Below are positions 4,352 through 44,660 of a DNA stretch of 64,000 bases, piece after piece. Location of the stretch: the NCBI RefSeq assembly GCF_004006315.1, contig NZ_CP026530.1, forward strand, positions 796,501 to 860,500. Direction: 5' to 3'. Below the pieces are notes generated by a model. The model made no database searches, was not told the DNA's origin, and was given only the letters and a program-made list of their open reading frames with translations. The position numbers and the translations under genes are program-made. This DNA is from Nautilia sp. PV-1. Its GTDB lineage: Bacteria > Campylobacterota > Campylobacteria > Campylobacterales > Nautiliaceae. Every line of letters starts with the position of its first letter. Within the stretch, counting starts at the first letter, position 1.

Positions 4352-4744
4352 ATGACAATAATTGAACTTAAAAAAATGATGATGAAAGCAAAAAGAGAAG
4401 ACAAAACAAAAGCAAATGCTTTAATGATGCTTGTTGACAGCGCACAGAAGATAGCTAAAGAAAAAGGCGAAGAAGTTAGCGAAAAACATATTCAGGAAGC
4501 TGCAAAAAAATTGGCGAAAATGGCTAAAGAATCTATAGAAGCCGGAATGGAAGAAGCAAAAAAAGAACTTGAAATTTACGAAAGTTTCCTTCCTAAAATG
4601 CTTGGTGAAGAAGAAACAACTAAAATTATTAAAGAGATAGTAGAAGAAATCGGTGGTAAAAATATGGGTGAAATTATGAAAAGGCTAAAAGCCAGAGGCG
4701 ATATCGATATGGCAATGGCAAGCAGGATAATTAAATCACTTTAA
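4352..4744 (+). CDS. GatB/YqeY domain protein
   Basis: A 130-residue, charged helical protein. The pattern IIELKKMMMKAKREDK at the start and a C-terminal block with MGEIMKRLKARG and DMAMASRIIK matches the YqeY family, which resembles the tRNA-binding tail of GatB. Its function is not established; a role with tRNA or aminoacylation is only suggested. ATG 4352 has a clear AAAGGAG site. The gene ends tail to tail with glutamate dehydrogenase, the two overlapping by 9 bases, so there is no room for a dedicated terminator. Confidence 0.85.
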   Translation: MTIIELKKMMMKAKREDKTKANALMMLVDSAQKIAKEKGEEVSEKHIQEAAKKLAKMAKESIEAGMEEAKKELEIYESFLPKMLGEEETTKIIKEIVEEIGGKNMGEIMKRLKARGDIDMAMASRIIKSL

Positions 4745-7700
4745 CAATTGCAGTATTAAAGAATTTGCTATATGGGATAGAAGTACTAGAGATTTTTTCT
4801 CTTTTTTAATCCCGTTTATTTCTTCTATGATATCTTCATATTCGTCTTTTTTTCTGGAAATGTATGTTTGAAATGATTTTTTCAAAGAAGAAGAGTCGAA
4901 TTTATTTGAGTTTATAACTTCTTTTGCGAATGTAATAACGAAATATTCGATTAATCTTTCTATCTCTTCTTTAAGGTTTTTGTCTATTCTGTTTTTAGGT
5001 TTTGTTGTTTTAATCTCTTTTAAAATTTTATTTATTTTGAATTTTGTGATTATTAATTTAAATAATTCCAGTATGGTTTTGAGTTCGAGGTTGTATTCGT
5101 GTTTTATCATAAACATGGCTGGCAAGAATTTATAAAAATCTTTCCATTTTTCATATAATTCAAGTTCGTTTCCGTTTCCTATTATTGATTTAACTTCGTC
5201 TTTGTAAGTAATGAACAATAATGGTTTTACAGAACTGTTTTCGAGTGTTTTGACCATCCATTTAACCGCAAATTTTATTGTTTTTTCTATATCTATCAGA
5301 GTTTCATACTGTTTTTCTATATTTTTGATTTTCAATGCTTCTGTTCTGATTTTGTCTGCATCAATAAGTTCGTTCATTATCAGATAGCTTTCTATTTTAT
5401 ATTTAAAAGATTTTTCATGAAAATTGCTGATAAAATCAATACCGTGCGCGTTAATAATATTGTTGGCAATCTGTGTGGCGATAATTTCTTTTTTTAAAGG
5501 ATGATGCATTATATCGTTTTCAAATTTTTCTAAAAATTCTTCAGGAAAATATTGTTTTAAAAATTTGTCGTAATAATTTGACTCGAGAAGGTTGGAATTT
5601 ATGATATATTTTTTTACAAATATTTTACTGTAAAGCATAATAATTGCTAATACTGGCCTTATTGCTTTGCCGTTATAATAAACGGTTTCTATTTCGCTGT
5701 TTTTAGGAATGGAATAATTTTTTCTTTTAAAATAGTCTGTGTTTTTTTCCAAAACTTCTAAAACTTTTATAAGTTTTTCTTTATAAACCCTTCTTTCTTC
5801 AAGAGAAAGTACAAGAGCGTGATGAAAGTTATTGAGCAGCACTTTTTCTATTACGTTATTTTCGATATCTTTTAATACTTTTATTTTATCTTTTTCGCTT
5901 ATTTTGCCTTTGTCTACAAGCATATTAAGTATCATTTTTAAGTTAACTTCATAATCGCTAGTATTGACTCCTGCAGAGTTGTCTATAGCGTCAAGGTTTA
6001 TTTTTCCTCCGTTAAGGGCATATTCGTATCTTGCAGGCATGGTAAGTGCAAGATTTGCTCCTTCGCATACCGCATAGGCTTTGATTTCGTTGGCGTTGAT
6101 TCTTATGTTTGCGTTTTGTTTGTCGCTGATATGTATATTCTGTTCATCCGAAGATTTGACGTATGTACCGATTCCTCCGAAATAGAGTAGGTCCACTTTT
6201 AGTTTAAGCAGGGATTTGGCCAGCTCTTCCGCACTCATTTCGTCTTTTTTAGTATTGAGAAGGTTTTTTATTTCAGGAGAAAGTTTAATAGATTTCTGGT
6301 CTCTTTTAAATACTCCTCCGCCTTTGCTTATTTTGCTTTTGTCGTAATCGCTCCAGCTTAAAGAATTTTCAAAAAGTCTTTTTCGTTCTTTATATGCGGT
6401 TTTCGGATCGGGATTAGGATCTATAAATATTTCTTTATGGCTGATTGCCCCTATAAGCAGAAAATTTTTGTTAAGAAGCATACCGTTGCCGAATACATCT
6501 CCTCTCATGGAACCCACACCGACTACGCTTAATCTGTCTTTATATATATCTTGATTTTTTTCTATAAAAAATCTGCCGGTTGTATGTATTGCGCCTTTTG
6601 CCGTTATTCCTAGTTTTTTATGGGAATATCCGGTGCTTCCGCCGCTTGCAAAAGCGTCTTTTAAAAAATAGCCTCTTTTTATTGCTATTTCATTTGCGGT
6701 ATCGCTCATGGAAGCTGTGCCTTTGTCTGCCGCTACGACAAAGTAAAAGTCATTATCGTCGTATTTAACCAGATCGACATCTCCCACATCAATAAGATCG
6801 AGCAGGGCATCGATAAAAAGAGAATAATATTTTTTAAATTCGTTTTTGCTTACACCGTCTTTATATATAACAAAGCCGCCTTTTGCACCTTCGGGAATTA
6901 TAAGGGCGTTTTTGGCTTCCTGGGTTATCATAAGGTCTTTTATCTCTTCTCTGAAATCGTGAGGCCTGTCTGACCATCTCAAGCCGCCCCGGCTTATTTT
7001 GCTCATTCTTAAATGTATTCCGTTGAAATCGTTATGATAAACGTAGCTTTCTATATTAGGCTGCATTCCGAATAAAATATTTTTGAAATTTTGAGTGTTG
7101 ACTTTAAACGATATCGTTTCTTTGTTTAAAAAATAATTCGTTCTTAATGTGTTTTTTACGATGGTAAATAAAACTCTGAATATTTTGTCTTCGTTTAAAT
7201 TTTTTATTTTTTTAATCTCTTTGGATATGGTTTTTTCTAAAGAAAGGTCTTTTGTTGAAAATCTGTCTTTGAAATAATTTATAATATATTTCGTTAATTT
7301 TGAATTATTTAATAATGCAGAAATAATTAGATTTTCATTAAATTCGTAAAAAAGCTGGTTTTGATATTTGATAAGAGCTCTTAAAAGAGATATTTCTCTA
7401 AGGGTAAAACCCTCCCACGCCATATAATACAGTTTGCAAAGGGTGTATATTTCGTTTAAAAGCGCTTTTTGTAATATTTCAAGAAAAATATGCTTATATT
7501 TAAAAAAAGTATCCGTATGCTGTATGTTTGTTTTTATTTTATATACATATATGCCGTCGTTTATAAATGATACGGAATCCAATATGTCAATATTGAAGTT
7601 TTGGAATATATTGCTGATTTTTGTTATCGGGAGTTTTTCTTTGGAATATATGTGAAAAGTTTGAGTCTCTTTTTCAAAGGAGATGTGTATTTTTTCAAAT

Positions 7701-7753
7701 TCCGGTATTTTATAATCTTCATTTGAGATTAACTGTTTGCATAAATCTTTCAT
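4736..7753 (-). CDS. NAD-specific glutamate dehydrogenase, large type
   Basis: A 1005-residue protein. The segment SRGGLRWSDRPHDFREE, the GAKGGFV block, the ASGGSTGYSHKKLGI region and GSMRGDVFGNGMLL are hallmarks of the large bacterial NAD-GDH family (GDH-180 type). It converts glutamate to 2-oxoglutarate and ammonia with NAD. Family members are often about 1600 residues; here much of the N-terminal regulatory region is absent, so this is a shortened form. The ribosome binding site is weak. It lies downstream of the tiny basic ORF and converges on the YqeY gene. Confidence 0.85.
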   Translation of the reverse strand: MKDLCKQLISNEDYKIPEFEKIHISFEKETQTFHIYSKEKLPITKISNIFQNFNIDILDSVSFINDGIYVYKIKTNIQHTDTFFKYKHIFLEILQKALLNEIYTLCKLYYMAWEGFTLREISLLRALIKYQNQLFYEFNENLIISALLNNSKLTKYIINYFKDRFSTKDLSLEKTISKEIKKIKNLNEDKIFRVLFTIVKNTLRTNYFLNKETISFKVNTQNFKNILFGMQPNIESYVYHNDFNGIHLRMSKISRGGLRWSDRPHDFREEIKDLMITQEAKNALIIPEGAKGGFVIYKDGVSKNEFKKYYSLFIDALLDLIDVGDVDLVKYDDNDFYFVVAADKGTASMSDTANEIAIKRGYFLKDAFASGGSTGYSHKKLGITAKGAIHTTGRFFIEKNQDIYKDRLSVVGVGSMRGDVFGNGMLLNKNFLLIGAISHKEIFIDPNPDPKTAYKERKRLFENSLSWSDYDKSKISKGGGVFKRDQKSIKLSPEIKNLLNTKKDEMSAEELAKSLLKLKVDLLYFGGIGTYVKSSDEQNIHISDKQNANIRINANEIKAYAVCEGANLALTMPARYEYALNGGKINLDAIDNSAGVNTSDYEVNLKMILNMLVDKGKISEKDKIKVLKDIENNVIEKVLLNNFHHALVLSLEERRVYKEKLIKVLEVLEKNTDYFKRKNYSIPKNSEIETVYYNGKAIRPVLAIIMLYSKIFVKKYIINSNLLESNYYDKFLKQYFPEEFLEKFENDIMHHPLKKEIIATQIANNIINAHGIDFISNFHEKSFKYKIESYLIMNELIDADKIRTEALKIKNIEKQYETLIDIEKTIKFAVKWMVKTLENSSVKPLLFITYKDEVKSIIGNGNELELYEKWKDFYKFLPAMFMIKHEYNLELKTILELFKLIITKFKINKILKEIKTTKPKNRIDKNLKEEIERLIEYFVITFAKEVINSNKFDSSSLKKSFQTYISRKKDEYEDIIEEINGIKKEKKSLVLLSHIANSLILQLLK

Positions 7754-7767
7754 AATAACTCATTTTT

Positions 7768-7819
7768 AAAAAAGAAAAAGAAGTTATTTAGTATATAAAA
7801 CTCTTCTTCTTTTTCTTTT
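7768..7819 (-). terminator. Purine/pyrimidine hairpin overlapping the end of the 19-codon ORF
   Basis: A perfect 14-bp inverted repeat pairs 7806-7819 with 7770-7783, leaving a 22-nt loop that holds the last codons and the stop. Read on the minus strand, an A/G-only arm inside the coding sequence is followed by a C/T arm ending in a T run. It can act as an intrinsic terminator for the small gene although the stem is A:U-rich. Readthrough would enter the glutamate dehydrogenase gene. Confidence 0.5.
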
Positions 7820-7843
7820 CATTTTAAATTTTCCTCTTGCCAT
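7784..7843 (-). CDS. Candidate 19-residue Arg/Lys-rich small protein
   Basis: Encodes MARGKFKMKRKRRRVLYTK and stops at TAA (plus-strand 7784-7786). Ten of the 19 residues are Lys or Arg. A perfect AGGAGG lies 4 bases before the ATG and a TATAAT box lies about 35 bases upstream, so initiation signals are the best in this region. The composition resembles short ribosomal proteins such as bL34, and a role in binding rRNA is the most natural guess, but I do not recognise a family. It sits 53 bases after the Memo-like gene and 30 before glutamate dehydrogenase. The coding nature is inferred from signals, not homology. Confidence 0.6.
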   Translation of the reverse strand: MARGKFKMKRKRRRVLYTK

Positions 7844-7877
7844 ATAACCTCCTTTTGTGTGGAAGTTAACATTTATA

Positions 7878-7883
7878 ATTATA
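7878..7883 (-). promoter_or_regulatory. -10 box for the 19-codon ORF
   Basis: TATAAT on the minus strand, preceded by a T-rich stretch with TTTTTTGT. A start of transcription near 7871 would give a leader of about 28 bases ending in AAAAGGAGGTTAT. The leader is just long enough for the ribosome binding site, as expected for a dedicated mRNA. Confidence 0.5.
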
Positions 7884-7896
7884 ACAAAAAATTATA

Positions 7897-8697
7897 TTAA
7901 ATAAAAATTGCGCTCATATATCCAACTACCTGTTTTTCATCTCCGCTGACATCTGCACTGGTTCTGTAATCCACCACGAAAGAGGCCAAATTTATTTCAA
8001 CACTTGCTAAAATCATGGCTTCAATTCCGATTTTACCGCATGCTTCACAGTTTTTCAATTTATTGACATCCTGTTCCGCCACGGCTTCTAAGCAGTTGTA
8101 ATCAAGGGCGTTAGCCGTTTTTATATCATAATAATGGCTTAAGTCGGAACTGATAACGACTAAAACGTTGTTTGCAATTAAAAACTTTATTATTTCTTTT
8201 AATTTTTCCGGAGAATAGTTTGAATAAACCATTTCTATTACAGGCACGCTGTTTCCGAAATAATGATAAATAAACGGCATCTGCACTTCTGTAGAATGTT
8301 CTGTATGAACGTGTTCTAAATTCTGTACTCCGAAATTCTCTATAAGCTCTTTTGAAAGCTGAACATTTACAGGCAGAATGCCGCAGGGCGTTTCATACGA
8401 ATCTTCAAGCGTTACGCTTATACCGTCAAATGCAAATTTATGTGATGGGCCTATAACCGCTATTGACGAAGGTTTTGTGTTTTGCGCTATTCTGTATGCA
8501 AAATTGGCGGTAAATCCGCTGTAAACCCATCCGGCATGCGGAACTATTAACGCTTTTGGTTTTAAAGAAAAAATTTCTTTTGCTTTTTCTGCATCGACAT
8601 TTTCATCTAAAATCATATTAAATCTTCTGATATAATCGGTAACGGCTTCGCATGTACCGCCGTACCATTCTTTTACTACCGCTTTTCTCATTTCCAT
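7897..8697 (-). CDS. amrB: AmmeMemoRadiSam system protein B (MEMO1-like)
   Basis: A 266-residue protein. HAGWVYSG at residues 54-61 and the SSDLSHY block match the MEMO family, which is related in fold to extradiol dioxygenases and holds a metal site. The eukaryotic relative is MEMO1; the bacterial function is unknown. Its start overlaps the end of the radical SAM gene by 10 bases, so both are made together. The third usual partner, an AMMECR1-like protein, is not adjacent here. Confidence 0.88.
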   Translation of the reverse strand: MEMRKAVVKEWYGGTCEAVTDYIRRFNMILDENVDAEKAKEIFSLKPKALIVPHAGWVYSGFTANFAYRIAQNTKPSSIAVIGPSHKFAFDGISVTLEDSYETPCGILPVNVQLSKELIENFGVQNLEHVHTEHSTEVQMPFIYHYFGNSVPVIEMVYSNYSPEKLKEIIKFLIANNVLVVISSDLSHYYDIKTANALDYNCLEAVAEQDVNKLKNCEACGKIGIEAMILASVEINLASFVVDYRTSADVSGDEKQVVGYMSAIFI

Positions 8698-44395: not shown

Positions 44396-44660
44396 CTCTA
44401 AGATTAAGAGCTGTAATCACTTCAAGATATTTGTCGTGATCTTTTCTTTTTAAGTATCTCATTAATCTTTTTCTTTGTCCAACTAATTTAAGTAAACCTA
44501 ATCTGCTTGAGTGATCGTGTTTGTGTGTTTGTAAATGTTCGTTGATTTCATTGATTCTTTCAGTCAATAATGCGATTTGAACCGCAGGACTTCCAGTATC
44601 TTTTTCATCATTTCCGAATTTAGCGATAATTTCTCTTTTTTTCGCCGAATCCAAAGCCAT
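44385..44660 (-). CDS. rpsO: 30S ribosomal protein S15 (uS15)
   Basis: A 91-residue protein. [17 protein letters not shown]-type motif (here [17 protein letters not shown]), [22 protein letters not shown] and LLRYLKRKD-like [10 protein letters not shown] are diagnostic. It binds the central domain of 16S rRNA. AGGAGG lies 5 bases before the ATG. Separate promoter, leader hairpin and terminator suggest a single-gene unit. It sits near flhA as in other Campylobacterota. Confidence 0.97.

Follow-up and report, generated by a model that had tools for sequence, protein, structure and literature searches.

A conserved 19-residue basic protein of the Nautiliaceae and a predicted leader hairpin over its Shine-Dalgarno sequence

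Introduction

Between a Memo-like gene and a glutamate dehydrogenase gene of Nautilia sp. PV-1, a sequence-only reading had drawn attention to a minus-strand frame of only 19 codons and had proposed that it was a real gene with perfect translation and transcription signals, whose product resembled a tiny ribosomal or RNA-binding protein. Does so short a frame encode a protein, and what might such a protein do? The question was addressed in the 64,000-nucleotide stretch of DNA that contains the frame (the window) and in genomes of relatives at increasing distance.

Results

The frame was recovered at the position and with the length first described, on the minus strand from 7843 to 7784 (ATG at 7843-7841, stop codon TAA at 7786-7784). 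Its product, MARGKFKMKRKRRRVLYTK, contains 11 Lys or Arg among 19 residues (58% Lys+Arg). A Shine-Dalgarno (SD) sequence, AGGAGG, is found on the same strand at 7848-7853, with the ATG 4 bases further on; starts of the type AGGAGG-N3-7-ATG occur only twice in the window, here and at a 91-aa frame at 44660 which, from its sequence, we take to be ribosomal protein S15. Further upstream, TATAAT at 7883-7878 is preceded, one base away, by TG and thus forms an extended -10 element (TGTTATAAT, 7878-7886, minus strand), and TGNTATAAT or a near match was present upstream of almost all copies of the gene described below. The two neighbours were as originally named, amrB of the Memo family upstream (7897-8697, minus strand; PF01875, E 2e-38) and a large NAD-glutamate dehydrogenase gene, gdh, downstream (4736-7753, minus strand; PF05088, E 6e-173); both lie outside the unit considered here, gdh being a variable neighbour. 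The radical SAM gene amrS overlaps amrB by 10 bases (8688-8697, minus strand), as expected for a tight operon.

When relatives were searched, as had been suggested with the original description, the peptide was found in 17 of the 21 genomes of the family Nautiliaceae and in none from other families of the order (peptide search, 41 genomes). A profile built from the peptide variants recovered the same 17 copies, one strong copy per genome, all as full-length matches with E values from 9e-12 to 1e-9. Their consensus was M[AP][RK]GKF[KR][ML]KRKRRRVLYSK, and the peptide of one genome (G002) was identical to that of the window. The KRKRRR core was invariant except for one change, in genome G015. 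The SD read GGAGG in 15 copies and GGAG in the most divergent copy (G006), and was lost in G015.

Nucleotide differences, summed over all pairs of copies, fell mainly at third codon positions (534, against 296 at first and 153 at second positions). Between the window copy and that of G006, pS was about 1.0, with synonymous sites saturated, and pN was 0.21; six of the eight codons from 9 to 16 (KRKRRRVL) had changed with no change of amino acid. Conservation in 17 of 21 family genomes, together with substitutions of the codon type, ruled out a chance ORF; an unconserved frame, or substitutions blind to codon position, either of which had been named as grounds for abandoning the gene, did not arise within the family. 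Conservation of the frame, its synonymous mode of evolution and the retention of a promoter-like -10 of its own mark the 19-residue protein, as judged from these sequences, as the product of a genuine gene, under purifying selection across the Nautiliaceae and independently transcribed.

Beyond the family, a phylum-wide sample of 397 genomes gave no further copies, the best non-family match having an E value of 0.01 across ten residues. Matches at E 0.01-1 in other families of the order were attributed to chance; those inspected were partial, in another frame or without a start and SD. A scan of 84,980 named genomes, in which low-complexity filtering and the exclusion of near records probably concealed other copies, returned 25 pattern matches, one of which was confirmed, in a MAG. 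As far as searched, the protein family thus seems restricted to Nautiliaceae.

The four family genomes without a match were inspected individually. One (G001) is 57% complete and has amrB truncated by a contig end, another (G017) has no amrB in its assembly, and in a third (G009) the contig stops 59 bases past amrS, ahead of amrB. The break in this last genome (L089, end of contig C75) is at a repeat-like GTTAGTAGA, just where amrB and the peptide were expected next. Only in G019 (locus L091) was the 3' end of amrB present with no peptide behind it; this genome is 70% complete, so a relocated copy may exist there. The G015 copy (L016:1484-1563), besides having lost its SD, carries the replacements G4E and R10G. 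G015 and G019, whose kinship was judged from the similarity of amrB and its neighbours alone, suggest a sub-lineage that appears to be in the course of losing the gene, G015 looking intermediate and G019 being without a copy after amrB. This apparent loss implies that the gene is not universally essential.

The SD is predicted to lie within a leader hairpin (7845-7868, minus strand), in which UAACUUCC (7868-7861) pairs with GGAGGUUA (7852-7845) with an energy of -9.1 kcal/mol; 5 of 200 shuffles were equally good. An equivalent hairpin was present in 15 of the 17 copies, each with ACUUCC, ACUCC or similar 6-12 bases ahead of GGAGG, the remaining leader having diverged. Because the leader arms were not placed correctly by automatic DNA alignment, pairing was assessed sequence by sequence. 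In these 15 copies the predicted probability of SD pairing at 37 C was 0.8-1.0. For ten copies, 0-5 of 400 leaders shuffled upstream of the SD paired as strongly; for the other five, whose stem has four pairs, the number was 12-27 of 400. The combined p of 6e-16 takes no account of relatedness among the copies and is no more than indicative. Species differed in the length of the arms and in the pairs flanking them (for example, UUAAC/GUUAA in G008 and CAC/GUG in G004), and covariation was mostly one-sided because the SD side is unable to vary. The G006 copy had no leader hairpin. A comparable occluding element was found at only one of 18 other SD-bearing starts in the window, and ACTTCC..GGAGG occurred at 8 further sites in the genome against 5 for a reversed-pattern control; two of these sites were read and neither was an evident gene start.

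With the SD sequestered in 15 of 17 copies, translation of the small gene looks regulated, according to these folding predictions, and not simply strong. The translation signals, formerly described as perfect, are therefore present as AGGAGG and ATG, but the SD itself is paired in a conserved hairpin. Predicted SD pairing was still 0.65 or more at 60 C, while N. profundicola grows best at 40-45 C and Caminibacter mediatlanticus at 55 C (PMC2628731), so a simple thermometer was not favoured.

A second hairpin, which had been noted for having the coding sequence as its left arm, proved real. It spans the stop codon in a terminator-like position (7769-7820, minus strand), with arms at 7820-7806 (the KMKRKRR codons) and at 7783-7769 (pyrimidine-rich, after the stop), and has an energy of -14.7 kcal/mol, which 1 of 200 shuffles matched. 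For 16 of the 17 copies, 0-4 of 63 control 3' flanks folded as well as this hairpin. It could terminate transcription, but it was not called a canonical terminator by a simple terminator scan.

The peptide was also compared with known proteins. No match was obtained in Pfam and NCBIfam at E up to 10, and a PDB sequence search gave two matches only, both to Hox-A13 at E about 5, neither of them convincing. Among small basic ribosomal proteins, there was no profile match for bS22/COX24 (PF08213, NF047430), whose Smith-Waterman score equalled that of shuffles, nor for bTHX (PF17070, TIGR04560). Similarity to bL37 was not clearly above that of shuffles. For eL41 (PF05162) there was no Pfam match, and hhalign aligned 5 columns with a probability of 12%; in shuffle controls, 6-31% reached the score of the peptide. 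In 80 genomes of the order, neither bS22 (PF08213) nor Thx (PF17070) gave a match over cut-off, suggesting that their ribosomal sites may be free.

Discussion

The best explanation of these results, to which we give about even confidence, is that the peptide is an RNA-binding, most probably rRNA-binding, accessory component associated with the ribosome, made under hairpin control from an independently transcribed Nautiliaceae gene. The peptide would act like bS22/eL41, as a basic plug in a 16S pocket (that of h27, h44 and h45), or like bTHX. The leader hairpin would limit production and would have to open before initiation, and control could be autogenous, as with many ribosomal proteins, the repressor being hypothetical. 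We favour association with the ribosome because tiny, basic, unannotated proteins have repeatedly turned out to be ribosome parts. Cryo-EM density led to the discovery of Borrelia bS22 and bL38, and one pocket is shared by bS22, mS38 and eL41 (PMC10618245, PMC10085706, PMC7005279); some of bS22, bL37, bL38 and eL41 were recognised solely as such density (PMC10618245, PMC10085706), and it is their size, charge and missing annotation that the present peptide recalls.

A ribosomal role would be the most likely single function. In its more specific form, the peptide would be a Nautiliaceae-specific ribosomal protein which fills a basic-peptide site, for example the eL41/bS22 pocket, independently of the known families and controls its own synthesis through the SD-occluding hairpin. 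We put this specific case forward tentatively, as possible and not as probable; in that case, and with the same reserve, a ribosomal protein of 19 residues would be shorter than bTHX, bL37 and bS22, the bacterial ones considered. Against a role on the ribosome in general, the gene is outside any ribosomal operon, no homology to small ribosomal proteins was detectable beyond composition, the protein was absent outside the family as far as searched, and G006 lacks the leader hairpin; a role that is essential everywhere is further opposed by the degraded G015 copy and by the absence from the amrB locus of G019. The earlier idea of a tiny ribosomal or RNA-binding protein stays plausible, but without detectable homology to bS22, bTHX, bL37 or eL41, beyond composition, to sustain it.

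A real, if minority, chance must be given to a regulated small protein that acts away from the ribosome through nucleic-acid binding or charge (for example a peptide of the nucleoid or RNA chaperone kind, or the small partner of an enzyme) and is translated only when stress, temperature or a regulatory RNA opens the hairpin. The near-invariant, highly basic core, the occluded SD, the dispensability of the gene in one sub-lineage and the moderately thermophilic, vent-dwelling nature of the family (PMC2628731) would all suit such a protein. However, 19 residues leave scant room for a fold, no gene is a constant partner, even amrB being unlinked in G006, and a hairpin predicted to be mostly closed at 60 C does not favour temperature acting as a simple switch.

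The position of the gene could instead point to a peptide functionally tied to AmmeMemoRadiSam (amrA/amrB/amrS), for example as regulator or substrate, which had been the second and weaker idea of the sequence-only reading. Indeed, 16 of the 17 copies are directly downstream of amrB. In G006, however, the peptide is at an unrelated locus where it keeps its own -10 and SD, between what we read from their sequences as an ABC-transporter-like cluster and a nuclease-like gene, whereas amrB is on another contig, followed by a presumably LysR-like gene. The G006 loci (L093 on contig C149 and L092 on C73) show a relocated copy with a differing C-terminus, VLGGKK, and amrB elsewhere. This separation breaks the strict link with amrB, and in G019 amrB has no peptide behind it, so linkage is not constant, nor does co-occurrence appear to be; what looks like the loss of both genes in G009 is explained by the end of a contig. 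Since the small gene also has its own -10, we consider a tie to AmmeMemoRadiSam improbable.

Quite improbable, too, is a leader peptide or attenuator, in which ribosomes on the ORF would unfold the 3' hairpin and so allow transcription to continue into the gene that follows (in the window, gdh). The left arm of this hairpin is indeed coding sequence, and a same-strand gdh comes next in eight of the 17 copies; in six, however, the next gene is convergent and there is nothing to attenuate, yet ORF and leader are conserved, and selection acts on the amino acids themselves. A leader role is made unlikely by this frequent convergence.

Least probable of all is a small regulatory RNA with an incidental or secondary ORF: both hairpins recur between species and the whole transcript (two hairpins, about 105 nt, with inferred ends) has a folding z of -3.9, but beyond the ORF the primary sequence shows little conservation among copies, changes inside the ORF are mainly synonymous, and Rfam had no match in the window. 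A type I toxin, considered on account of the 19 residues and the occluded SD, was rejected; the peptide has no hydrophobic segment and is family-wide, with one strong copy per genome, mostly in a fixed place.

The results describe a small protein family and a conserved leader hairpin, the latter missed by the sequence-only reading. They add a conserved protein, of a length usually missed by gene callers, in a deep-branching vent lineage with a sequenced isolate, and the SD-occluding hairpin offers a direct handle on the regulation of the small gene. If the peptide is on the ribosome, basic plugs of the bS22/eL41/bTHX type would have been recruited repeatedly, and lineage-specific ribosome parts would still be hidden in genomes.

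Among known systems, leader peptides of the trpL type likewise combine a short ORF with a hairpin overlapping the coding sequence; in contrast to them, the 19-aa gene has no constant downstream gene, the neighbour being convergent in six copies, and selection on its amino acids extends along the full length. Of bacterial ribosomal proteins, bTHX (30S ribosomal protein Thx) is also short and basic and comes from a thermophile ribosome, although no profile match to it was found here, and the mycobacterial type of bL37, of 24 aa, is likewise basic and lineage-restricted. The group formed by bS22, mS38 and eL41 (proposed uS22) shares with our peptide a tiny size, a composition of 55-65% basic residues and frequent lack of annotation, and eL41 also has a KRKRR run; the 19-aa protein is shorter than these, without homology beyond composition, and is a candidate only for a role on the ribosome. 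No membership in the bS22, eL41, bTHX or bL37 families could be detected for it, but by analogy it may function like one of them.
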